DNA from: Flavobacteria bacterium BAL38
GTDB taxonomy: Bacteria; Bacteroidota; Bacteroidia; Flavobacteriales; Flavobacteriaceae
Direction: 5' to 3'
Assembly: GCA_000169355.1 (NCBI GenBank)
Contig: AAXX01000005.1
Coordinates: 1-64,000, forward strand
Length of the DNA: 64,000 nt
Part shown: positions 1 to 34,870 of the stretch, piece after piece
How positions within the stretch are numbered: position 1 is the first letter of the stretch
How the letters are laid out: the number at the start of each line of letters is the position of its first letter
Made by a program: the position numbers and the translations under genes
The notes under the pieces: generated by a model
Databases searched by the model: none
What the model was told of the DNA's origin: nothing
The model's input: only the letters and a program-made list of their open reading frames with translations

Positions 1-177
1 AATAATTAAAAGGATTATACTCTTTTGTACTTGTATACACATCTGTACTGAAAGTGTTTTTAAAAAAGCAATAACAGCATTAATTTCAGTTGCTATTAAA
101 TTCAATTATGGTTCAATTCCTCCAGATCTTAATCTAGTGTCTAGGTTGTTTTTGAAATCAAATTTATAATTGCCTTT
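1..177 (-). pseudogene. Remnant of a di-haem cytochrome c peroxidase C-terminus
   Basis: Read on the minus strand immediately after the stop of the arylsulfotransferase-like gene, about 58 codons translate to a recognisable peroxidase tail: NLDTRLRSGGIEP, then a TAA stop, then LNLIATEINAVIAFLKTLS, then a frame change to STDVYTSTKEYNPFN. The intact peroxidase in this window ends similarly (KPMNLSDNERTELVAFLKTLS). The in-frame stop near 109 and the shift near 50 mean it cannot make this segment as one protein. There is no room for haem domains, so it is a 3' fragment that may continue left of the window. The assignment rests on similarity I can see by eye. Confidence 0.6.
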
Positions 178-1818
178 TTATTTTTTTATATTTTTTTTAA
201 TTATAAATCCATCATTATTTGAAATTTTTAAAAAATATAATCCGCTACTAACGGAATTGATGTCTATATTAATAGAAATATCACCTTGAATGAGGTAGTC
301 GGTTTTTACTATTTGTCCTAATTCATTTATTAATTCAATATTTAAATCACTTTCAATTTGTCTAGTTTCAATATTTATAAATTCTGATGCAGGGTTGGGA
401 TAGATTAAAATATTATCTGAAATTGAATTATTTAAATTAGATAATGTTAAATTACAGTTGGCGGATATAGCATTTGAATTTTCAATAATATTTCCTGATG
501 TTAAATTATGTCCAGTAAATCCAGTATAATCATTAGGATAGAAGTTACATCTAAAAACTAAATTTTGAGTTGGAGTTGTACCTTGATTAATAATACCCGC
601 GTTGACTGGGTTTACGTATTTCCAAACTGTTGTACCGGTGGAATTTACTTCTCTGAAAGTCCCTGTAGGACCTTCACAGAGAAGTACATTTCCATTTGAT
701 AGTTGTTGAGAACCAGAAATATTTTGTGCATAAATATTATTTGGATTACCTGAATTATAAATCCATGAAGTCGTTGAAGGGCCATAAGGAATTGTAGAGG
801 TATAAAGATATCCGTTTACTGGAGGGTTAATAATTTCCACGGTTGTATAATTCCCTCCAGTTCTTCCATTACCGTTATTAAAAATCATGATTTGATTTTG
901 GTATGGAAAACCATTTTCTATCCAATAGGCGTTATGTTGACCGAAAAATTTTTGATCAGCAACTGTTCCATTGTTATAAGCTCTTGGATTTCCCCATCTG
1001 TATAATAAATCACCACCTTTTCCTGAATTCCCTCCTGTATGTGATGCTGCTTGTGTGGTTGTTGTACTATGGTCTATTATCCAAATCTCATCAAACTCAT
1101 GTGAACTTAATATGATTTGATCTAATGTAGGATTGTAATCAATTGAATTTAAATGAATCCAATCAGAATTTGTAGCACTTGCGCTGAAATTGAGATTAAT
1201 TAATTGCGGATTGTTACTTACTGTGCCAAAATTTGGTTTTGAATTATCATAATCTTGAATTAAATGATCCCAAACATGCCATTCCCAAACAATATTTCCG
1301 CCTGTTGCACCAACTGGTTGTATCTCAATAATTTTTTCACTCCATACTGTTGTAGGAACTAAACTTGGGTTTCTTCCTTGAGCAATTGCTTCAGTATTTG
1401 TTTTAGACTCCCAAACAATAGCTAAAACATTCCCGTTTGGTAATGCTTTAATATCATGATGTTGACATTCTGTTGTACTAGAAATTGTATAATTCCAAGT
1501 CACATTCCCGTTCCAATCTATCTTTTGAATTATGCCTCCTTTTCCTCCAGCATTAAAAGTCGTATTATTAGTATTTCCTGAACGAAGTAAAGTTCCGTCA
1601 GGTAAAATATAACAAGATTGTCCAGGTCTATAAGTACTTGGCCAACTTTTAACTTGTTTACCACATTTATCAATTAAATAAGTATTAGTACTTAAAATTG
1701 GAGCAAATAATACATAGCCATCGTCTAAAGTACCAATATCATGCTGAATTAATCCAATAGTTTGTGAATACAATGGTACTATAAAAAACATTAAAATAAA
1801 ATTGAGTGTTTTTTTCAT
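178..1818 (-). CDS. Arylsulfotransferase-like secreted protein with T9SS type A sorting domain
   Basis: The 546-residue protein starts with a signal peptide ending near PLYSQ (residue 19). The middle resembles the arylsulfotransferase (ASST) beta-propeller family: a His-His pair at 120-121 followed by DIKALPNGNVLAI, repeated aromatic/Asp blades, and a YRWGNPRAYNNG segment. The last ~75 residues form a T9SS type A sorting domain beginning YPNPASEF, with the LINELGQ and SGLYFLKI signatures and a basic end, so the protein should cross the outer membrane and be attached or released there. It is the last intact gene of the sigma-factor operon, nine bases after the YHYH gene. Whether it is an active sulfotransferase is unproven; many Bacteroidota members of this family have no known substrate. 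Confidence 0.8.
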   Translation of the reverse strand: MKKTLNFILMFFIVPLYSQTIGLIQHDIGTLDDGYVLFAPILSTNTYLIDKCGKQVKSWPSTYRPGQSCYILPDGTLLRSGNTNNTTFNAGGKGGIIQKIDWNGNVTWNYTISSTTECQHHDIKALPNGNVLAIVWESKTNTEAIAQGRNPSLVPTTVWSEKIIEIQPVGATGGNIVWEWHVWDHLIQDYDNSKPNFGTVSNNPQLINLNFSASATNSDWIHLNSIDYNPTLDQIILSSHEFDEIWIIDHSTTTTQAASHTGGNSGKGGDLLYRWGNPRAYNNGTVADQKFFGQHNAYWIENGFPYQNQIMIFNNGNGRTGGNYTTVEIINPPVNGYLYTSTIPYGPSTTSWIYNSGNPNNIYAQNISGSQQLSNGNVLLCEGPTGTFREVNSTGTTVWKYVNPVNAGIINQGTTPTQNLVFRCNFYPNDYTGFTGHNLTSGNIIENSNAISANCNLTLSNLNNSISDNILIYPNPASEFINIETRQIESDLNIELINELGQIVKTDYLIQGDISINIDINSVSSGLYFLKISNNDGFIIKKNIKK

Positions 1819-1827
1819 TTTTTTGTT

Positions 1828-3171
1828 TTATTTTTTTATAATTACTTTATAAGTTTTACTATTATTTTTACTTGATATTTTTACAAAATATATCCCATTA
1901 TAAACTGAATCAGTTTCAATTATAGATAATGTGCTACCCTGTAAAATTTTACTTTTTTTGATAACTTGGCCAAGTTCAGATATTAATTCAACATCTAAAT
2001 CGCTTTCTGTCATTTTAGATTGTATTGCAATAAATTCAGATGCGGGATTAGGTGCAATCGTAATATCAAAGTTGTTGTTTTCAAATGAATCTGATGAAAG
2101 GGTAGTTGTTCCCCCTGGAATCGATGTAACTGTACCACCTGTTGTAGTGTTTTTTACACCATAAAAGTAAGGACCAACAGCATATGGGTAAGCAGAATTA
2201 TGATTAGCGTCTACAGTTGTAAAATAACAATAAATTCCTGATGGATATTCAGGTGTAATACAAAATCTACCATTATGCTTATCTAAATAATCAGGAGATG
2301 AATTTGTAACAAATTCATAATCTTCTCTGTATCTTCCTAATGGATATGTTGTATTAACTGGAGGACCGTCAGTAACATCAGTGCCATCTGCATAGTGTGT
2401 TCTTGCAGTAATATTTCTCAATTGATAACTCGATTTCATTCTAACTATACCACCTGTACCATCAGTATTTGCATAAGCATATGCTCCATAAATTGGAAAC
2501 CCATCATATGCATACCCTAATAAAGGTGAATGTTGAGATGGATTAATAACATATAACCCATCAGAAGGATAGGTGTCACAAATTGTAGATAGAACTTGTA
2601 AATCTAAATTAAAAGCACTTGGATTTTGATGATGATGGTAATTTCCTTGTGCAGGATGTGCTTTTGAACAATCAAATCCACCTCTTTCTGCAACAATAGC
2701 ATCTCTATTCCAAACGCCATCACCTGTTCCACCAATTGGTCCACCAGCTTCAGCGCCTGTTGAATTTTTATATGAAACCCCATCTCTATAATCAAATAAT
2801 GCTACCCCATTTTTAAAAATTCCTATGTTTCCACCAGTTGTTGCAGTCAAAGTGCCTGTATTTTGTGTAGGAGTTAAAGTTATTCTAAAAATTTTATTTT
2901 GTGCAGTTGCAAGAGATGGGTTTCCATCTAAAAAAGGTCCTGTAATATAAGCTGGAATTCCTGTTGCTGTAACATAAACATAATTAGTGTTATATTGTAC
3001 AGTTTGAACATTTGCAAGTACAGCATCTGTAATTGGTGTTGAATTTCCTGAAACATAATGTCTTCCAGTAATATTAGTAGTATTAACTAACCAATTTGTA
3101 ATAGCTGGGTTTAATTGTGCACTTATAATGAACGAGGTCAATAAGGCTAAAAAAGTAAATGTTTTTTTCAT
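1828..3171 (-). CDS. YHYH-domain secreted protein with T9SS sorting domain
   Basis: The 447-residue protein has a signal peptide ending at FIISAQ (residue 19). The YHYH domain (PF14240 family) shows the namesake motif as NYHHHQNP at 177-184, preceded by AHPAQG, then LLGYAYDGFPIYG at 217-229, the GRFCITPEYPSGIYCYF block at 301-317 and AYPYAVGPYFYG at 327-338. The function of the family is unknown. The His/Tyr/Cys-rich core suggests metal binding, which is inference. A type A sorting domain starts near APNPASEF and is strikingly like that of the neighbouring arylsulfotransferase-like protein. It lies 61 bases after the di-haem peroxidase gene and probably belongs to the same transcription unit. 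Confidence 0.85.
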   Translation of the reverse strand: MKKTFTFLALLTSFIISAQLNPAITNWLVNTTNITGRHYVSGNSTPITDAVLANVQTVQYNTNYVYVTATGIPAYITGPFLDGNPSLATAQNKIFRITLTPTQNTGTLTATTGGNIGIFKNGVALFDYRDGVSYKNSTGAEAGGPIGGTGDGVWNRDAIVAERGGFDCSKAHPAQGNYHHHQNPSAFNLDLQVLSTICDTYPSDGLYVINPSQHSPLLGYAYDGFPIYGAYAYANTDGTGGIVRMKSSYQLRNITARTHYADGTDVTDGPPVNTTYPLGRYREDYEFVTNSSPDYLDKHNGRFCITPEYPSGIYCYFTTVDANHNSAYPYAVGPYFYGVKNTTTGGTVTSIPGGTTTLSSDSFENNNFDITIAPNPASEFIAIQSKMTESDLDVELISELGQVIKKSKILQGSTLSIIETDSVYNGIYFVKISSKNNSKTYKVIIKK

Positions 3172-3232
3172 TTTGTTAGTGTTTATTAAGTTTATTGTAA
3201 TTAATAGTTTGCTTTAATGTTTACTAATTCAT

Positions 3233-4258
3233 TTAATAATTTTTTGGATATGAATACTTTGGATTATAAAGAAACTCTTTGTCAGATAATGTTTTTAAAA
3301 AGGCAACAAGTTCGGTTCTTTCATTATCAGATAAATTCATTGGTTTTTGTAATTGTTTAGATAGTGTATTGCTATGTTTAATTCCTGAATTATAATGTTT
3401 TATAACTTCATTTAAAGTTTTGAATCTTCCGTCATGCATATATGGGAATGTGAATTCGATATTTCGAAGCGTAGGAATTTTAAATTTTAAAGAATCTGAT
3501 TTTATTTGGGTAATCTTCATTCTACCATAATCATTTAATGTTGGATCTACAGATAATCCATTATTTTCAAATGTATCTGAAGTGAATAAAGGTTCTTTAT
3601 GACATGAAGCACAATTTTGTTTAAATATGTTGTATCCTTTTTGTTCCATTTCTGTGAATTTTTCTTCCTTTCGAACTACTTTGTCATATTTTGAATTGGA
3701 AGTTGTTAGCATAACCACAAATTGCGACAAAGCTTTCAAAGTCAACTGTCCAGTAACTTTATCAGTTCCAAAAGCTTTTTTATATAATTCTTTATATTTT
3801 GGAATTTCTTGAAGTTTTTTAACCACATTTTCCATAGTTTCATCCATTTCTACTTCACTAGTAATAGGATGAATATATTGTACATCTAAATGATTAACGC
3901 CACCATCCCACATAAACGTTTTGTTCCAAGCTAAATTTTGTAAAGTCAAAGAGTTTCTAGTTCCAATTTTACCATCTATTCCATGACTCAAATCGTGGTC
4001 TACGTGTGTAAAACCTGTTTGTTGTAAATGACAACTAGCGCATGAAATAGTATTGTCGCGAGAAAGAATGGGATCATAAAATAAATTTCGACCTAATTGA
4101 AAACCTTCTTCTGTTAAAGGATTTTTAGAAAAATCATAAACAGGTTTTGGCCAATTTTTTGTAATATCTAAATAAATAGGAGTAGTATTCCATTTTGAAA
4201 ATGAAAAAAAAACAAATAACATTAGTCCCAAAGTTAATGTGGTTATTATTTTTTTCAT
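3233..4258 (-). CDS. Di-haem cytochrome c peroxidase, MbnH/MauG type
   Basis: The 341-residue exported protein has an N-terminal signal/anchor (residues 4-21) and two c-type haem sites, CASCH at 73-77 and CASCH at 216-220. It also has the family's RNSLTLQNLAW segment (101-111) and MWDGG (116-120). This is the bacterial di-haem peroxidase fold. Its start overlaps the stop of the MbnP-like gene by ATGA, so the two are translationally coupled. That pairing points to MbnH, which in methanotrophs oxidises a tryptophan of MbnP to kynurenine to create a copper site. An ordinary hydrogen-peroxide-reducing CcpA role is the alternative. At 341 residues it is of usual length for the family. Confidence 0.9.
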   Translation of the reverse strand: MKKIITTLTLGLMLFVFFSFSKWNTTPIYLDITKNWPKPVYDFSKNPLTEEGFQLGRNLFYDPILSRDNTISCASCHLQQTGFTHVDHDLSHGIDGKIGTRNSLTLQNLAWNKTFMWDGGVNHLDVQYIHPITSEVEMDETMENVVKKLQEIPKYKELYKKAFGTDKVTGQLTLKALSQFVVMLTTSNSKYDKVVRKEEKFTEMEQKGYNIFKQNCASCHKEPLFTSDTFENNGLSVDPTLNDYGRMKITQIKSDSLKFKIPTLRNIEFTFPYMHDGRFKTLNEVIKHYNSGIKHSNTLSKQLQKPMNLSDNERTELVAFLKTLSDKEFLYNPKYSYPKNY

Positions 4259-4965
4259 TCTATAGAAAATAGTTTAGTTGATAAGTTGGCTATTTTCATC
4301 GCTTCATCTCCAGGAATCATTATGTTATTGGTTGATGTTAAAGAAATTTCAGAAAATAGTTTCTCTAAATCCATGCCAATTTCTATTTGATTTTTAAATT
4401 TGTTATTGAAATTATCATTGCAATAGAGATTGATGTTTCTCATCGCATAGTAAGGTTGCAAATAGCCACCAACATGAAACTGAAATTTATTTTTTCGAGT
4501 TGGGCAACTTGAACTTTTTCCTTCAATTTTTAAATTAATAAAACCACTTTGCCAAGCCCAATACATTCCTTTTGTAGCATCTAAATCGCCTTCTAAAGCA
4601 CCAGAAACACTAGATAAGCTATCTACTCCAATATTAAATTGAACCGATTTTAAAACTTTGTTTTTAAAATTTGAATAAGGGAATGAAAGTGTATTCGTTT
4701 TAGAGTTTTCAATATCTATTAAATGGTAACTGTATTCTTCTTTAAAAACAGAATTATCAACAAAATGAAATTCAAAAGAAGTTAAATAGAATTTAATCGA
4801 TGAAAAACATAAGGTGTCATTTTTTTTTGAAATATAATTAGAATCTAATTCTATAGGCTGTTTATCAAATAATAGATTAATATTCAAATACAAACTATCA
4901 GAATTTTTCTGAGCGTTTGATTGAATGGAAAGAAGCAATAGAAAACCAATTATAATTTTATTCAT
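4255..4965 (-). CDS. MbnP-like copper-binding periplasmic protein
   Basis: The 236-residue protein, from ATG at 4965, has a signal peptide ending near SNAQ (residue 19). It shows the MbnP family signatures: FNIGVDSL (110-117), SGALEGDLDATKGMYWAW (121-138), SGFINLKIEG (140-149) and FQFHVGGY (161-168). Trp136 and Trp138 lie where the family's modified tryptophan is expected; which one would be oxidised is inference. An in-frame start 27 bases upstream exists, but the chosen start gives a clean signal peptide and a short ATGAATAA overlap with the gene before. Its stop overlaps the di-haem peroxidase start. No methanobactin peptide or biosynthesis gene is nearby, so this is the stand-alone MbnP/MbnH arrangement. 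Confidence 0.85.
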   Translation of the reverse strand: MNKIIIGFLLLLSIQSNAQKNSDSLYLNINLLFDKQPIELDSNYISKKNDTLCFSSIKFYLTSFEFHFVDNSVFKEEYSYHLIDIENSKTNTLSFPYSNFKNKVLKSVQFNIGVDSLSSVSGALEGDLDATKGMYWAWQSGFINLKIEGKSSSCPTRKNKFQFHVGGYLQPYYAMRNINLYCNDNFNNKFKNQIEIGMDLEKLFSEISLTSTNNIMIPGDEAMKIANLSTKLFSIE

Positions 4966-5416
4966 CTTTTTTAGGCTTTCTATTTGGAGCAAATATTTTA
5001 GATAATTCTTGCGTTAGTTCATTATAATTATCTAGTTGTTCAGGTTTACATAGTTTTTTTATCTCTAAAAAGTGATTGTAATGCACCAGCTCTATTTCAG
5101 ATTTATAAAGGTATAAACTATTTAAAATACTGTCTGTAACAACTTTATTTTCTGATAAATTTAGCTGTTGATATAGTTTGTTTTTAGAATCTTTAATTTG
5201 ATTATCAAGTCGACTAATATTTGCTTTATGTTTTTTAATAAGTATTTCATATTCAGCTATTTGATTTTTGTTAAAACCTAATTTATGAATTATAATTTCT
5301 TTTGGTTCTTTTTTGGAATCGTTTTTTTGATCATTAAAAAACAAAAAAGAAAGTGTTACCATATTTATTACAAATAAAGCTATTACGGCAATTGTTAATA
5401 CTTTAATTTTGTTCAT
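4958..5416 (-). CDS. Membrane-anchored CpxP/Spy-like periplasmic protein (heavy-metal sensor type)
   Basis: The 152-residue protein has one N-terminal membrane helix (about 8-29) and then a highly charged, all-helical periplasmic domain with KLGFNKNQIAEYEILIKKH (45-63) and a late KLCKPEQLDNYNEL segment. These resemble the LTxxQ-type repeats of CpxP, Spy and the CnrX-like heavy-metal-resistance family. Such proteins sense periplasmic stress or metals, or act as chaperones. Its place directly after a sigma factor and a small membrane protein fits a sensory or anti-sigma role, as in cnrYXH-type systems, but sequence similarity is low. It starts 4 bases after the previous stop and overlaps the MbnP-like start by 8 bases. 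Confidence 0.6.
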   Translation of the reverse strand: MNKIKVLTIAVIALFVINMVTLSFLFFNDQKNDSKKEPKEIIIHKLGFNKNQIAEYEILIKKHKANISRLDNQIKDSKNKLYQQLNLSENKVVTDSILNSLYLYKSEIELVHYNHFLEIKKLCKPEQLDNYNELTQELSKIFAPNRKPKKDE

Positions 5417-5420
5417 TTTT

Positions 5421-5690
5421 TTAATATAATTGATTATTTACAGTTTTTACTATTTCAGCAATACCAGTATTATTTTTATTTTCATTTCTTTTTTGCGATA
5501 AAATTGTAGTATTTAATGTAACAAGCACTACAATTGATGCTGCAACTAACCATTTTGTAAAATTATCTGCAGGTTTATTTTCTTTTATTTTAGATTGAAT
5601 TTTATTTAAAAGAGTATCATTTGGACTTACCTTAGTAATTCCACTTGAAGAGTTTAGTATCTCGTCAATCCAATTTTCTTTTGCTTTCAT
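5421..5690 (-). CDS. Small single-pass membrane protein, probable anti-sigma factor
   Basis: This is an 89-residue protein with about 44 N-terminal cytoplasmic-type residues, one transmembrane helix (about 45-65, WLVAASIVVLVTLNTTIL) and a short charged outer tail. It is immediately downstream of the ECF sigma factor gene (17-base gap) and 4 bases before the CpxP-like gene. Size, topology and position are those of a minimal anti-sigma factor holding the sigma factor at the membrane. There is no recognisable zinc-binding HxxxCxxC motif, so the role comes from context only. Confidence 0.55.
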   Translation of the reverse strand: MKAKENWIDEILNSSSGITKVSPNDTLLNKIQSKIKENKPADNFTKWLVAASIVVLVTLNTTILSQKRNENKNNTGIAEIVKTVNNQLY

Positions 5691-5707
5691 AATAGTTTAG
5701 ACGAAAT

Positions 5708-6259
5708 TTATTTTTTTTTCTTGCGGTATGCATCAAAATTATTTGATAAATTTTCTTTTAAATTGTTTTTTGCTCTAAAAATTAAGGATTCTATAGCCGA
5801 AATACTCATTTGCATTATCTCTGAAACTTCTGTATTTGACAAACCATCGACTTTTGAAAGTATAAAAGCTGTTTTTTGATTTTCGGGCAATAAATTAATT
5901 ACCTGAAATAATATTTTAGCATCTTCTTGTTTTTCTAATAGGATACCTGGGTGTTCAAAGTTTGAAGTGTTTAATAATTCGTGTTCATTTTCACTCTTTC
6001 GCCCAAAAACAAAAAAACGTTTTTTACTATTCTTTTTTTTAATATAATCTAGAGATTGATTAATGGTAATGCGATAAATCCAAGTTTTAAATGTTGAGTT
6101 TTCTTTAAAATTAGATACATTTTCGCTTACTTTAATAAAAACATCTTGTGTGATTTCTTCAGCATTTTCAATGTTTTGAACATAGTTTAATGCAACATTA
6201 TAAACCAAAACTTTATATTGATTATAAATGGTTATAAAAAGCATTGAATTGTTGTTCAT
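5708..6259 (-). CDS. RNA polymerase ECF-family sigma factor
   Basis: This 183-residue sigma-70-family factor has only regions 2 and 4. Region 2 (about 8-75) contains AEEITQDVFIKV and FKTWIYRITINQSLDYIK. Region 4 (about 122-172) contains LPENQKTAFILSKVDGLS followed by an EVSEIMQMSISAIESLIFRA helix-turn-helix. A basic KKKNSKKR linker separates them. It heads the operon that continues into the putative anti-sigma, CpxP-like, MbnP-like and di-haem peroxidase genes, so it probably regulates this set, perhaps with autoregulation. No clear TAnnTTTG promoter is visible upstream, consistent with expression from a dedicated ECF promoter. Confidence 0.9.
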   Translation of the reverse strand: MNNNSMLFITIYNQYKVLVYNVALNYVQNIENAEEITQDVFIKVSENVSNFKENSTFKTWIYRITINQSLDYIKKKNSKKRFFVFGRKSENEHELLNTSNFEHPGILLEKQEDAKILFQVINLLPENQKTAFILSKVDGLSNTEVSEIMQMSISAIESLIFRAKNNLKENLSNNFDAYRKKKK

Positions 6260-6386: not shown

Positions 6387-7133
6387 ATGAAATTATTAGA
6401 AGGAAAAGTAGCTATTATTACAGGTGCTAGCCGTGGAATTGGTAGTGGAATTGCTAAGGTTTTTGCAGAGCAAGGTGCAAATGTAGCATTTACTTACAGT
6501 TCGTCTGTAGAATCAGCAATGTCTTTAGAAAATGAATTAAATGCTTTAGGAATAAAAGCAAAAGGATACAAATCAAACGCAGCTGATTTTAATGAAGCGC
6601 AAAAATTAGTAGATGATGTAATTGCTGAATTTGGTACTATTGATGTATTAATTAATAATGCCGGAATTACAAAAGATAACTTGCTAATGCGTATGTCTGA
6701 AGAAGATTTTGATAAAGTTATTGAAATCAACTTGAAATCGGTTTTCAATATGACAAAAGCAGTGCAAAAAATCATGTTAAAAAACCGTAAAGGTTCAATT
6801 GTTAACATGAGTAGTGTAGTAGGAGTAAAAGGAAATGCAGGTCAAGCCAACTACGCAGCTTCTAAAGCAGGAATGATTGGTTTTACAAAATCTATTGCAT
6901 TAGAATTAGGTTCAAGAAATATTCGTTGTAATGCTATTGCTCCTGGATTTATTGAAACTGAAATGACGGCTAAGTTAAACGAAGATGTAGTAAAAGGTTG
7001 GAGAGAAGCTATTCCGTTAAAACGAGGTGGAACTCCAGAAGATGTAGCAAATGTTTGTGTTTTCTTAGCTTCTGATATGAGTGCTTATGTAACCGGACAA
7101 GTTATTAATGTTGATGGAGGAATGCTTACTTAA
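6387..7133 (+). CDS. fabG: 3-oxoacyl-ACP reductase FabG
   Basis: This 248-residue short-chain dehydrogenase reduces 3-oxoacyl-ACP with NADPH in fatty acid elongation. The Rossmann motif TGASRGIGSGIA is at 11-22, the NNAGIT motif at 89-94, the catalytic Ser in MSSVVG near 140, the YAASK catalytic Tyr/Lys motif near 153-157, and the family end TGQVINVDGGM at the C-terminus. The length is exactly typical of FabG. It stands alone rather than with other fab genes. FabG is hard to separate from other SDR enzymes by sequence, but every diagnostic motif fits. Confidence 0.92.
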   Translation: MKLLEGKVAIITGASRGIGSGIAKVFAEQGANVAFTYSSSVESAMSLENELNALGIKAKGYKSNAADFNEAQKLVDDVIAEFGTIDVLINNAGITKDNLLMRMSEEDFDKVIEINLKSVFNMTKAVQKIMLKNRKGSIVNMSSVVGVKGNAGQANYAASKAGMIGFTKSIALELGSRNIRCNAIAPGFIETEMTAKLNEDVVKGWREAIPLKRGGTPEDVANVCVFLASDMSAYVTGQVINVDGGMLT

Positions 7134-7211: not shown

Positions 7212-7580
7212 ATGAGGGTTTTTAGTTTTGAAAAATTAATTGCATGGCAAAAAGGAAGAGAATTAGCATTATTAATTTACAAAACTACGAAGCGATTCCC
7301 TAAAGATGAAACTTTTGGCTTAATAAGTCAAATGAGACGTTGCTCAATTTCTATAGCATCAAATTTAGCAGAAGGCTCTGGTAGGAATTCATTTAAGGAT
7401 AAAGCTCGATTTTCTGAAATAGCTTATGGTTCTTCTTTAGAATTATTAAATCAAGTAATTTTATGTTTTGATTTTGAATACATTAATGAAAATGAGTATA
7501 ATCTAATACGTGAAAAAATTACAGAAGTAAATATGCTTATAGATGGTTTATACAAATCTCAATTGGCAAATATAAAGTAA
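7212..7580 (+). CDS. Four-helix-bundle protein, S23/23S rRNA intervening-sequence family
   Basis: This 122-residue protein belongs to the S23 (23S rRNA intervening-sequence) four-helix-bundle family. It shows FEKLIAWQKGRELALLIYK (6-24), then FGLISQMRRCSISIASNLAEGS with the conserved RR and SNLAEG, and LGSSLEL-type packing late in the chain (FSEIAYGSSLELLNQ). Family members form pentameric basic bundles and are scattered through Bacteroidota genomes, often as isolated genes of unknown role. Here it sits between fabG and a VWA gene, flanked by imperfect AT-rich inverted repeats, which suggests an inserted cassette. No rRNA is near. Confidence 0.88.
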   Translation: MRVFSFEKLIAWQKGRELALLIYKTTKRFPKDETFGLISQMRRCSISIASNLAEGSGRNSFKDKARFSEIAYGSSLELLNQVILCFDFEYINENEYNLIREKITEVNMLIDGLYKSQLANIK

Positions 7581-7605
7581 CTCTTTTAAACTTTTAAACT
7601 ATAAA
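7581..7605. repeat. Right flanking AT-rich repeat of the S23 gene
   Basis: CTCTTTTAAACTTTTAAACT and the ATAAA that follows form an imperfect inverted copy of 7153-7168. Together they bracket the S23-type gene. Confidence 0.55.
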
Positions 7606-9632: not shown

Positions 9633-10475
9633 TAGCTGTATAGTTATTTTTCTTTGAAACAAATCTTCTTTTTCTAGAAAATTAATCCCTTCTTTTTCAA
9701 TTAAGTTTCCATTATGGTTTGTATTATCGGCTAAACCACACCACGGTTCTATACATAAAAAGGGTGCATTTGGTTTGGTCCAAATCCCTACATAAGGAAA
9801 GCCTTCGTAAATAACTTTTAATACAAATTCGTTATTGTGTTTTAGTATAATTTCATCCGATTTTAAATGTTTAAAAACCAATGCATCTTTTTCAAAATGT
9901 AAATAATCCAATTTAATTTCTCCATTATTAGCTTCAATTTCTCGAACTGAGTTGTCAAATTGCTCATTATTCAATTCATGTGAAATCATGGTTTCAGTTT
10001 TATTAAAAACCAAACTATATTCAGAAAATGGATGATCGATTGCAAATGCCGGATGTGCACCAATTGAAAAAGGCATCGAATCTTCAGATTTATTATAAAC
10101 AGAATATGTAATTTCTAAACCTTTTTCGGTTAGTTTGTAATTCAGAAGTAATTCAAAATCAAACGGAAATAAAAGTAATGTTTCTCTAGAACTTACTAAT
10201 GAAAGACTAACAAAGTTTTCTGTTTGTGAAACTATTTTAAAATCAAAATTTCTGGCAAAACCATGTCTTGGTAAATTGTAGCTTTTATCCTGATATGTAA
10301 AAGTGTCATTTTTTAATCGACCCACTATTGGAAACAGAATAGGAGAGGTTTTGTTCCAGTACGTTTCATCAACTGTCCAAATGTAATTTTTACTTTTGCT
10401 GTTTAAACTAATTAATTCGGCACCAATCGTATTAATTGATGCCGAAAATGTAGTATTTGAAATGGTTATAATCAT
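9624..10475 (-). CDS. Aldose 1-epimerase family protein (LacX-like)
   Basis: This 283-residue protein has the galactose-mutarotase-like beta-sandwich pattern. RHGFARNFDF (around 75-84) follows a PILFPIVGRLKN segment, SIGAHPAFAIDHPF (about 137-150) carries a family His, and YVGIWTKPNAPFLCIEPW comes near the C-terminus. These match the LacX-like subfamily of aldose 1-epimerases, which interconvert anomers of a sugar whose identity is unclear. No sugar-utilisation genes surround it. It lies 2 bases downstream of the ABC permease-like gene and may be co-transcribed with it. Confidence 0.85.
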   Translation of the reverse strand: MIITISNTTFSASINTIGAELISLNSKSKNYIWTVDETYWNKTSPILFPIVGRLKNDTFTYQDKSYNLPRHGFARNFDFKIVSQTENFVSLSLVSSRETLLLFPFDFELLLNYKLTEKGLEITYSVYNKSEDSMPFSIGAHPAFAIDHPFSEYSLVFNKTETMISHELNNEQFDNSVREIEANNGEIKLDYLHFEKDALVFKHLKSDEIILKHNNEFVLKVIYEGFPYVGIWTKPNAPFLCIEPWCGLADNTNHNGNLIEKEGINFLEKEDLFQRKITIQLLQ

Positions 10476-10477
10476 AA

Positions 10478-12022
10478 TTAATCTTCTGCTAATCCTTTCC
10501 AGTTTCTAATAATTTTTGATAAAATAAACAATACAATAATAGCCACTATAAAGTTAATGGTAAACATATCTGTAACATGTTCTTTTAACCATTTGTATTC
10601 AGGAGATTCATAGTAACTATAGTCAAATCTATATTGTTCTTTTTTGTAAAAATCTTGAATTAAAAAGTAAATTAAAGGAATTACAGCAACAAATGACCAT
10701 AAAAATAAATTCAATGCTAATCTACTATATTGAATGCTTTTTTTGCTGAAATAAATGAAAAAGAAATACAATATAATTCCAATAATAGTAAATAACATTA
10801 AGTAAAAATATAGATTACCTCCGCTTGCTAAAGCTGCAAAAATGCCATAAATAATATTTAAAACTCCTGTAATTACTATTGCTATTAGCCAACTTTTTCC
10901 AGAAGTTACTCTAAATGAGAAAACTAATAAAGCTAAACCTAAAGCTCCATATAAAAATGCAAGTATGGCTTCAAAATCAAAAAAGTCTTCTGTATGAGCA
11001 TCAGAAACAGTATCGTATTTCTTTTTTAAGACATCTTGTTGAACAAAATATTTGGAATATTTTTTTTCACCATCTCGCACTTTTACAGCATAATCATAAT
11101 TGTTATAGGAATAAGAATCTTCTGTTTCGTACTCTCTTAAATAAGGCTGAATAAATAGATATTCATAAAATTCTGGTGCTTTGTACGTTATTTCAAACCA
11201 TTTATTAGCAGTTAAATTAGTTGCTAAGTTATGCTCTTGTATAAGTTTTAAATAATCGGCTTGTAATTTTTGAACTGCACCGGCATTGTTATTAAATAAC
11301 CAAGTTTTAACTTCAATTCTATTTAAAGAATCTTGTTCATTAGAAATTACTGAAAAATCATATGTATTTCTATTTAATAATGAATATTCATCGTATTTTT
11401 TTCCTTTAAATAAGATGTAATCTTTACGAACATATGCATTTCCGTCCATTTCAACAGCTTCAACAGCATATTCAGTATTGTTATAATTTTGATTTGATTT
11501 TTCTTGCGGAATCACATTTCCTAAACTATCAATTAATCCAGAAGCTAAAGAATCTAATTCGGTTTGAGCAAAACTTCCATCAATAAAATAATCTGCAGTA
11601 CTAATGGTTTTACATCTTTTTGTTGTTTCTTCTAAAGAAAAATAACTTTTTTGATGCCATTGTTTAGCAACTGAAAACGGAATATAAAATGTAATAAGCA
11701 ATAAAATAATTGTGAATATTTGCATTAATTCATAAAACAAACTGTATTTTGATTTGCTGTAAAAAGATTTTAAAGAATTGTTTTTTAGATAATTAACTAA
11801 CCATAAAATAAATATCACGATGATTATTAAAACACCAAACATTATTGATGTTGCCTTAATGTCAATATTATTTCGATTAGAAAAGTCGATAGTTCCGTCT
11901 ATATAGCCTAAGCCAAAAAAGATAAGATGAAGTAATAATCCAATTGCTATCATTGGAATAAATTTTGTATTCCAAAGTAACGGATATTTAAGAAGTAGTG
12001 TTTTTTGTATATTTTTAAACAT
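10478..12022 (-). CDS. ABC-transporter permease-like integral membrane protein
   Basis: This 514-residue protein has several hydrophobic helices, at about 24-43, 60-80, 92-112, and five or more in the C-terminal half (from about 350). A hydrophilic extramembrane loop of roughly 200 residues lies between the two groups. It directly follows an ABC ATPase gene (13-base gap), so it is the likely membrane partner. There is no clear match to a named permease family; the layout fits ABC-2-type exporters of Bacteroidota. The substrate is unknown. Confidence 0.65.
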   Translation of the reverse strand: MFKNIQKTLLLKYPLLWNTKFIPMIAIGLLLHLIFFGLGYIDGTIDFSNRNNIDIKATSIMFGVLIIIVIFILWLVNYLKNNSLKSFYSKSKYSLFYELMQIFTIILLLITFYIPFSVAKQWHQKSYFSLEETTKRCKTISTADYFIDGSFAQTELDSLASGLIDSLGNVIPQEKSNQNYNNTEYAVEAVEMDGNAYVRKDYILFKGKKYDEYSLLNRNTYDFSVISNEQDSLNRIEVKTWLFNNNAGAVQKLQADYLKLIQEHNLATNLTANKWFEITYKAPEFYEYLFIQPYLREYETEDSYSYNNYDYAVKVRDGEKKYSKYFVQQDVLKKKYDTVSDAHTEDFFDFEAILAFLYGALGLALLVFSFRVTSGKSWLIAIVITGVLNIIYGIFAALASGGNLYFYLMLFTIIGIILYFFFIYFSKKSIQYSRLALNLFLWSFVAVIPLIYFLIQDFYKKEQYRFDYSYYESPEYKWLKEHVTDMFTINFIVAIIVLFILSKIIRNWKGLAED

Positions 12023-34689: not shown

Positions 34690-34722
34690 AAAAAAAGGCT
34701 TGTCGTGATTGACAAGCCTTTT
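34690..34722 (-). terminator. trp attenuator (Rho-independent terminator before trpE)
   Basis: AAAAGGCTTGTC/GACAAGCCTTTT (34693-34704 with 34711-34722, six-base loop) is followed by T7 on the minus strand. It lies between the Trp-rich leader peptide and trpE, 21 bases from the trpE start, so transcripts must read through it to express the operon. Confidence 0.88.
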
Positions 34723-34762
34723 CTATGTATTTGGTTTTAAATGATACTATAGCAGGATTCGC

Positions 34763-34819
34763 TCACGAAGTTCGACGTAAGTTAGACCACCACCAAGTAT
34801 TGTTTAAAATTGAAATCAT
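34763..34819 (-). CDS. trpL: trp operon leader peptide
   Basis: This 18-residue open frame reads MISILNNTWWWSNLRRTS, with three consecutive tryptophan codons. It begins at ATG 34819 and lies between the promoter-like elements and the terminator. Ribosome stalling at the Trp codons when charged tRNA-Trp is scarce would disturb the hairpin CTTACG/CGTGAG (34762-34781) that overlaps its last codons, and so affect the attenuator. The peptide itself has no expected function. Three adjacent Trp codons at this place are very unlikely by chance, although the antiterminator pairing I can find is weak. Confidence 0.85.
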   Translation of the reverse strand: MISILNNTWWWSNLRRTS

Positions 34820-34837
34820 TTTCTTAATTGTATGTTG

Positions 34838-34870
34838 CAAATATTTCGAATAAAATTTTGAATAAACAAA
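34838..34870 (-). promoter_or_regulatory. Probable trp operon promoter
   Basis: On the minus strand, TTTG (34867-34870), 21 bases, then AATATTTG (34838-34845), one mismatch from TAnnTTTG. The start of transcription would fall about 10-15 bases before the leader ATG. Confidence 0.5.

Follow-up and report, generated by a model that had tools for sequence, protein, structure and literature searches.

A conserved Bacteroidota operon that couples an MbnP/MbnH-like pair to an ECF sigma factor, a putative periplasmic sensor and a T9SS-tailed YHYH protein, with a possible role in envelope copper handling

Seven genes on the minus strand at the start of contig AAXX01000005.1 of Flavobacteria bacterium BAL38 (178-6259) encode, in order, an extracytoplasmic function (ECF) sigma factor, a short membrane protein, a sensor, an MbnP protein, an MbnH-like enzyme, a YHYH protein and an arylsulfotransferase (ASST)-like protein. 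They were analysed in a window of 64,000 nucleotides, positions 1 to 64,000 of that contig; the genome comprises 2.81 Mb in 14 contigs. The operon is real and conserved, and the best reading of it, which we hold with about even confidence, is an envelope copper-handling operon under CnrYXH-like control. The core MbnP/MbnH pair and the control logic are of known kinds; their combination with a YHYH protein bearing a type IX secretion system (T9SS) sorting tail, and the tie between YHYH and SCO1, did not turn up in the open-licence papers searched. The operon and its candidate promoter consist of the following features (aa, amino acids):

5708..6259, minus strand: ECF sigma factor, 183 aa; Sigma70_r2 1.4e-16, Sigma70_r4_2 3.7e-13; sigma70-ECF TIGR02937 99 bits, cut-off 42.9
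5421..5690, minus strand: short membrane protein, 89 aa; one hydrophobic stretch
4958..5416, minus strand: CnrX/Spy-like periplasmic sensor, 152 aa; N-terminal anchor
4255..4965, minus strand: MbnP-family protein, 236 aa; signal peptide-like start, WxW; PF20243 1.7e-46
3233..4258, minus strand: MbnH/MauG-like di-haem enzyme, 341 aa; CCP_MauG 1e-56
1828..3171, minus strand: YHYH protein with T9SS sorting tail, 447 aa; PF14240 2.7e-57; TIGR04183 45.3 bits
178..1818, minus strand: ASST-like protein with T9SS sorting tail, accessory gene, 546 aa; Arylsulfotrans PF05935 7.8e-26; TIGR04183 42.8 bits
6280..6303, minus strand: candidate ECF promoter AAC-N17-GTC; begins 43 bases before the sigma start

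Pfam and NCBIfam matches uphold the gene identities given in the first-pass annotation, and the open reading frame (ORF) coordinates agree with the layout it described, a minus-strand run with overlaps and short gaps. The intergenic gaps are 17, 4, 61 and 9 bases; the sensor and MbnP genes overlap by 8 bases (ATGAATAA) and the MbnP and MbnH genes by 4 (ATGA), the MbnP start being taken at the first ATG, 4965, where the ORF tool had chosen a TTG at 4992. With these short gaps and overlaps, the spacing of the seven genes fits a single transcript. A divergent gene at 6387 starts 127 bases ahead of the sigma gene. Position 1 of the window is also the contig's first base, and any genes further downstream than the ASST-like gene are out of view.

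Public genomes were scanned once with the MbnH protein, and the best 80 of the 89 loci found (numbered with the prefix L) served as relatives of the operon; all of them have MbnH because they were selected by it, which does not hold for its neighbours. Neighbour profiles were built without the sorting tail, since the tail common to ASST-like and YHYH proteins blurs the labels. The closest named loci among these 80 were from Flavobacterium. MbnP was found within 200 bases of MbnH in 75 of the 80 loci. Sigma factor, sensor and MbnP were detected together within 4.5 kb upstream in 42 loci, 38 of which also had the small membrane protein; the three-gene set was present in 39 of the 67 loci having more than 3.5 kb of upstream sequence. 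A same-strand YHYH gene was within 7 kb of MbnH in 51 loci and directly next to it in 40, and YHYH was present in 48 of the 72 loci having more than 1.5 kb of downstream sequence. The gene order, on whose conservation in related genomes the first-pass annotation had made its proposal depend, recurs: sigma factor, sensor, MbnP, MbnH and YHYH occurred together in 32 of the 80 loci. Cultured flavobacteria with the complete series of genes, sigma factor through YHYH, include Flavobacterium amnicola (L043), F. terrisoli (L055) and F. sedimenticola (L058). The ASST-like gene had been counted as a member of the module and is not a regular one. It was near MbnH in six of the 80 loci, once as a 62-aa fragment, and is an accessory gene outside the conserved core. 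The fragment follows YHYH (L044, 7218-7406) and looks like decay of the accessory gene.

The remaining loci vary in several ways. Nineteen of the 80 failed both the sigma/sensor and the YHYH tests, and in 15 of these the MbnP is of the common type and a recurrent gene (cluster c2) is found downstream. The sensor of L054 is partial, cut by the contig end. Six loci with the sigma, membrane protein and sensor trio and with downstream room lacked a same-strand, full-length YHYH gene; L036 and L050 have the second YHYH class, L064 has a divergent YHYH, and L088, L089 and L090 have none. A wider sample of 296 Bacteroidota genomes contained MbnP in 78 and YHYH in 34. YHYH matches of at least 150 bits, taken as full-length, occurred in 22 genomes, 13 of which also had MbnP, and in eight of these 13 the two genes share a strand and are no more than 3 kb apart (G000, which is the genome of the window, and G401, G393, G409, G241, G224, G306, and G210). 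Within the family to which the window belongs, 36 of 199 genomes matched the MbnP protein at all and five matched it better than 1e-20; judged by these matches, operon-type MbnP looks rare in the family. In 11 loci from a single lineage (e.g., L065, L068, L071, and L085) an MMPL-family gene lies upstream of the sigma gene, next to household genes; in L065 the two genes have the same orientation and are separated by a nucleotidyl transferase gene and a polyprenyl synthetase gene. This arrangement is perhaps only lineage synteny.

The MbnP of Methylosinus is modified by MbnH, which oxidises the first Trp of a WxW motif to kynurenine and thereby creates a Cu(I) site. The window MbnP exceeded the PF20243 gathering score (158.9 bits, cut-off 27), and its AlphaFold2 (AF2) model had a predicted local distance difference test (pLDDT) score of 91. 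The six chains of Methylosinus MbnP (7l6g) ranked first in a Foldseek search with the model, and VIA-align matched the model to 7l6g with a Z score of 17.5 over 206 residues (root-mean-square deviation 2.8), the next entry having a Z score of 5.1. Both Trp residues of WxW were kept in all 56 MbnP sequences, in which the Met two places before WxW and one His were also invariant; a second Met was found in 52. A PDB search with MbnP profile A2 found no MbnP, while the wider profile A6 recovered 7l6g (E 0.0019), with WxW and the conserved His aligned.

The same genome has a second MbnP/MbnH pair, of the common type (contig C11, 73512-75095; L114, 7345-9537), followed by a 325-aa protein without a Pfam match and then by a haem peroxidase of 774 aa (PF00141). 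The sigma, sensor and YHYH profiles matched nothing in the 19 kb taken around this pair. An MbnP with its own T9SS sorting domain was found in L121 (2411-3394; 33.9 bits, cut-off 27), next to MbnH, and tails below the cut-off occurred on MbnP in L090 (6018-7001) and L108 (3397-4377), each followed by MbnH; these three are possible surface MbnP proteins. Fifteen common-type MbnP/MbnH loci (L094-L097, L099-L104, L106, L107, L109, L111, and L112) have a downstream gene in common, which encodes about 300 aa and often has CDICGCG close to the start, and a small protein with a CNGKC-like motif was near the MbnP/MbnH pair in 13 loci. Neither had a Pfam match in the one member of each that was tested.

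The best NCBIfam model for the di-haem enzyme was MbnH TIGR04039, with 226.2 bits against a cut-off of 362.85. Its two CXXCH motifs (C73/C76/H77 and C216/C219/H220) and Tyr289 were present in all 61 MbnH sequences, W111 in 60 and W117 in 58. Tyr289 aligned with the Tyr of 6e1c and with the Met of the classic peroxidase 1iqc. The MauG alignment ended at query residue 291 and chain residue 296, and, read from these ends, it placed Tyr289 at MauG residue 294, which we take to be the haem-ligand Tyr. The presence of Tyr289 where 1iqc has Met favours a MauG/MbnH-type enzyme over a classic peroxidase. Methanobactin genes had been reported absent by the first-pass annotation, and this was borne out for MbnB (PF05114), which had no match at E 0.001 anywhere in the genome. 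In L050 of Flavobacterium gelidilacus (10001-11029) the MbnH frame was split into two ORFs, and the gene may be broken or misread.

The YHYH protein scored 194.3 bits against PF14240 (gathering cut-off 25). The prediction of two T9SS cargo proteins is supported by TIGR04183 tails above the cut-off of 23 in both the YHYH and the ASST-like protein and by an SprA match of 3018 bits in the genome; the YHYH tail also matched solved T9SS tails. Six His (172, 179, 180, 181, 214, and 299), Cys168, Cys198 and the Trp W154 were present in all 48 YHYH sequences. Comparison of YHYH with solved structures by sequence gave no convincing match (best E 0.28), and a fold search with its model returned nothing but T9SS-tail and DUF3244 chains at E up to 0.001, the His region of the model having a pLDDT below 50. 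The PDB matches of the ASST-like protein covered the tail region only; no solved AssT was matched, and catalytic residues could not be placed. In nine loci (L037, L038, L039, L043, L051, L052, L053, L055, and L058) a second MauG-like gene came right after YHYH, and the eight complete proteins among these kept both CXXCH motifs and the distal Tyr, but not W111. The order of YHYH and second di-haem gene, which mirrors that of MbnP and MbnH, suggests that YHYH may be a client of the second enzyme. A bolder proposal, which also draws on the invariant W154 and which we consider rather unlikely, makes YHYH a copper protein of the cell surface that would, like MbnP, be matured by MauG-type chemistry; a copper-sensing ECF switch would then control two copper sites formed by Trp oxidation, of which one stays in the periplasm and T9SS exports the other.

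The regulatory genes resemble those of metal-responsive systems. In CnrYXH, metal bound to CnrX frees the sigma factor via CnrY, according to the cited portions of two papers (PMC7689651, PMC4803752). Pfam matches of the short membrane protein were no better than E 0.006 across its 22 aligned members; its size, its hydrophobic stretch and its place between sigma factor and sensor make it a likely CnrY-type anti-sigma factor. No Pfam family exceeded its cut-off in the window's own sensor. Metal_resist (PF13801) was matched by 22 of the 30 proteins of the sensor alignment at E up to 0.1 (best 2.4e-9), the window's own not among them, and the L126 sensor passed the Metal_resist cut-off. The sensor profile matched Spy best in the PDB (3oeo, 2.6e-4), then a VirG-like protein (4.6e-4) and, weakly, NccX over its length (4clv, 0.083). 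These Spy and NccX matches, with the Metal_resist matches in relatives, support the earlier proposal of a metal-sensor-like regulator. His63 (43 of 43 sequences) and Phe116 were invariant and Cys123 was present in 42 of 43; a 35-sequence alignment gave His63 in 35, His115 in 29 and Cys123 in 34. Five more relatives, including the SCO1-type locus L126, kept His63 and Cys123, and the L040 sensor lacked the Cys.

A candidate ECF promoter, AAC-N17-GTC, was chosen post hoc, after inspection of the upstream sequences. It recurred 39-53 bases before the sigma start in eight relatives, mostly Flavobacterium, and was present in nine of 34 non-redundant upstream regions, compared with none or one at other spacings from 10 to 24 and none to three in 50 shuffles; the strict form was missing in the other 25 regions. 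Upstream of MbnP it was found in only two of 15 YHYH loci without the sigma gene. A stricter motif had six matches genome-wide and five in the reversed control, with no enrichment and no readable regulon.

Genes of copper metabolism were found around the relatives of the operon. The slot after MbnH, whose clusters were checked by Pfam with one member each, held SCO1/SenC, EF-hand, second YHYH, MORN, T9SS multicopper oxidase, AhpC/TSA, T9SS CotH and second MauG-like genes. SCO1 and second-YHYH clusters occupied it in L036, L040, L042 and L050, and the multicopper oxidase cluster in L034, L048 and L113. Twenty further YHYH places from the 296-genome sample were also examined, ten of the short (second) class and ten full-length, the latter from among the 14 genomes without nearby MbnP. 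SCO1 was within 1 kb on the same strand in nine of the ten short-class loci, L134 being the exception. L126 has sigma factor, small membrane protein, sensor, YHYH and SCO1 in a row, without MbnP, and L040 a similar run. Among the ten full-length genes, that of L143 is next to multicopper oxidase and AhpC genes, that of L144 has an ASST-like gene and that of L140 an MbnH at the contig edge. None of the profiles matched a direct neighbour of the remaining seven, though in L145 the opposite strand has a multicopper oxidase match at a distance of about 4 kb. Genes similar to MbnPH occur in Proteobacteria in operons with ScoC and PCuAC, as stated in the part of the paper used here (PMC9426467). The copper module put forward in the first-pass annotation is made likelier by the SCO1 and multicopper oxidase genes in the slot and by the YHYH-SCO1 pairs elsewhere; the wide occurrence of the sensor class in Bacteroidota tells the other way.

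In the mechanism that we favour, the anchored CnrX/Spy-like sensor would detect a soft metal present in the periplasm, copper being the most likely one, through its conserved His and Cys, judging from its family and these residues. The sensor would then make the small membrane protein hold the ECF sigma factor less tightly, and the sigma factor would transcribe its own operon from AAC-N17-GTC, a motif found in a minority of the relatives. By analogy with Methylosinus, and in line with the observed Trp and haem motifs, the MbnH-like enzyme would oxidise the first Trp of WxW to give a Cu(I)-binding periplasmic MbnP. T9SS would send YHYH, and here also the ASST-like protein, to the cell surface, as the tails and SprA suggest, and surface YHYH would most likely bind or pass on copper through its invariant His, to judge by its gene associations. 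Metal excess would switch the operon on if it behaves as CnrYXH does; control by starvation is the alternative.

Several observations weigh against a copper-handling role. The window MbnP scored 31 bits against the 140-bit cut-off of the equivalog TIGR04052 and has three Cys, where 7l6g is named a four-Cys protein. When four operon-type sequences were aligned with twelve of the common type, the operon type lacked the lipobox-like N-terminal Cys and the His-rich C-terminus of common Bacteroidota MbnP, and it therefore looks like a distinct subfamily. The sensor conserves a Cys and has no conserved Met as counterpart of Met123 of CnrX, a comparison made without a residue-level alignment to CnrX; CnrX needs Met123, and a Met123Cys change abolished its nickel response, as given in the section cited (PMC7689651). 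Copper specificity is further questioned by sensor matches at 1e-5 in 133 of the 296 Bacteroidota genomes. The ten-genome set of short YHYH proteins was hand-picked from short matches, and the SCO1-linked YHYH is another subclass, which makes the inference to the operon YHYH indirect. YHYH occurred without sigma factor and sensor within 4.5 kb in 13 loci with upstream room, the trio being further upstream in L040, and nine of the 22 genomes with full-length YHYH had no MbnP. The recurrent neighbours tested by Pfam, a subset of the clusters, included neither a TonB receptor nor, apart from the MMPL gene, an efflux pump.

The operon could instead serve copper scavenging under starvation, like CorA/CorB and MopE/SACCP, being on at low copper, with YHYH and MbnP gathering copper for SCO1 and oxidases. 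The portion of the CorA/CorB paper cited describes that pair as copper-repressed and surface-linked, with a kynurenine copper site in CorA (PMC3912023), and copper delivery would fit both the SCO1 neighbours in relatives and the MbnPH-Sco-TonB operons of Proteobacteria described in the available part of PMC9426467. The known CnrX-type sensor, however, is turned on by metal and not by its lack, as far as the source cited goes (PMC7689651), and no TonB receptor was among the Pfam-tested neighbour clusters. We regard scavenging as possible but doubtful.

A module for envelope or oxidative stress is unlikely in our judgement. Its sensor would be a Spy/CpxP-like folding or redox sensor, MbnH would be a peroxidase and the copper link would be incidental. 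The sensor profile has Spy as its best match in the PDB, the conserved sensor Cys could be a redox switch, and AhpC/TSA-cluster genes occupy the slot in three loci; the Tyr of MbnH at the position of the 1iqc Met, the invariant WxW of MbnP and the SCO1 and multicopper oxidase neighbours all speak against it. A study of jumbo phages, in the portion cited, assigns YHYH a predicted function as metal-dependent hydrolase, with three His and one Asp (PMC7824862), and ASST-like and CotH-like T9SS proteins occupy the same slot. On these grounds YHYH could be a secreted metal-dependent hydrolase and the operon a surface enzyme system dependent on a partner matured by a di-haem enzyme, copper not being its subject. 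Yet loci without MbnP pair YHYH with SCO1 and, in one case, with a T9SS multicopper oxidase, and we consider a hydrolase system very unlikely.

Each part of the operon has known counterparts. The MbnP fold, WxW and the overlapping or abutting di-haem gene are shared with the methanobactin operons of Methylosinus trichosporium (7l6g); in contrast, here there is no MbnB match in the genome, both proteins are under the NCBIfam cut-offs, and the sigma/sensor trio and T9SS YHYH are added. CnrYXH of Cupriavidus metallidurans likewise encodes a small membrane protein, an anchored periplasmic sensor and an ECF sigma factor together, upstream of effectors, whereas here the order is sigma-Y-X, Cys and not Met is conserved, the operon has no resistance-nodulation-division (RND) efflux genes and the sensor resembles its counterpart only weakly in sequence (NccX, E 0.083). 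In methanotrophs, by the cited portions of their papers, CorA/CorB and MopE/SACCP combine a kynurenine-site copper protein with a MauG-like di-haem gene, are surface-associated and lack methanobactin (PMC3621798, PMC3912023); CorA and MopE are not markedly similar to MbnP (PMC3621798), and the passages used describe no sensor trio or T9SS tail. The bp2923/CruR-type copper operons of Proteobacteria also hold MbnPH-like genes with SCO-type chaperones and are regulated, but they differ in upstream-ORF control and TonB receptors, and the part of the paper cited does not mention YHYH or T9SS (PMC9426467). Open-licence papers yielded neither the combination of genes in this operon nor a tie of YHYH to copper or SCO1.

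Two further features of the window were recorded. A 122-aa gene (7212-7580) is situated between the gene at 6387 and a 675-aa gene at 7605; its cluster occurred in the window and five loci, and not in the others, and its product presumably resembles the four-helix 23S rRNA intervening-sequence proteins. A Bacteroidetes tryptophan peptide leader RNA was detected on the minus strand at 34711-34839 (81.8 bits).

The operon extends MbnP/MbnH from methanobactin producers, its best-known setting, to sensor-controlled Bacteroidota loci with proteins sent to the surface. For the YHYH family, the searches gave one predicted function and no solved relative. Two kinds of neighbourhood, MbnP/MbnH and, for the second subclass, SCO1, tie YHYH to copper genes and give the family a testable role.

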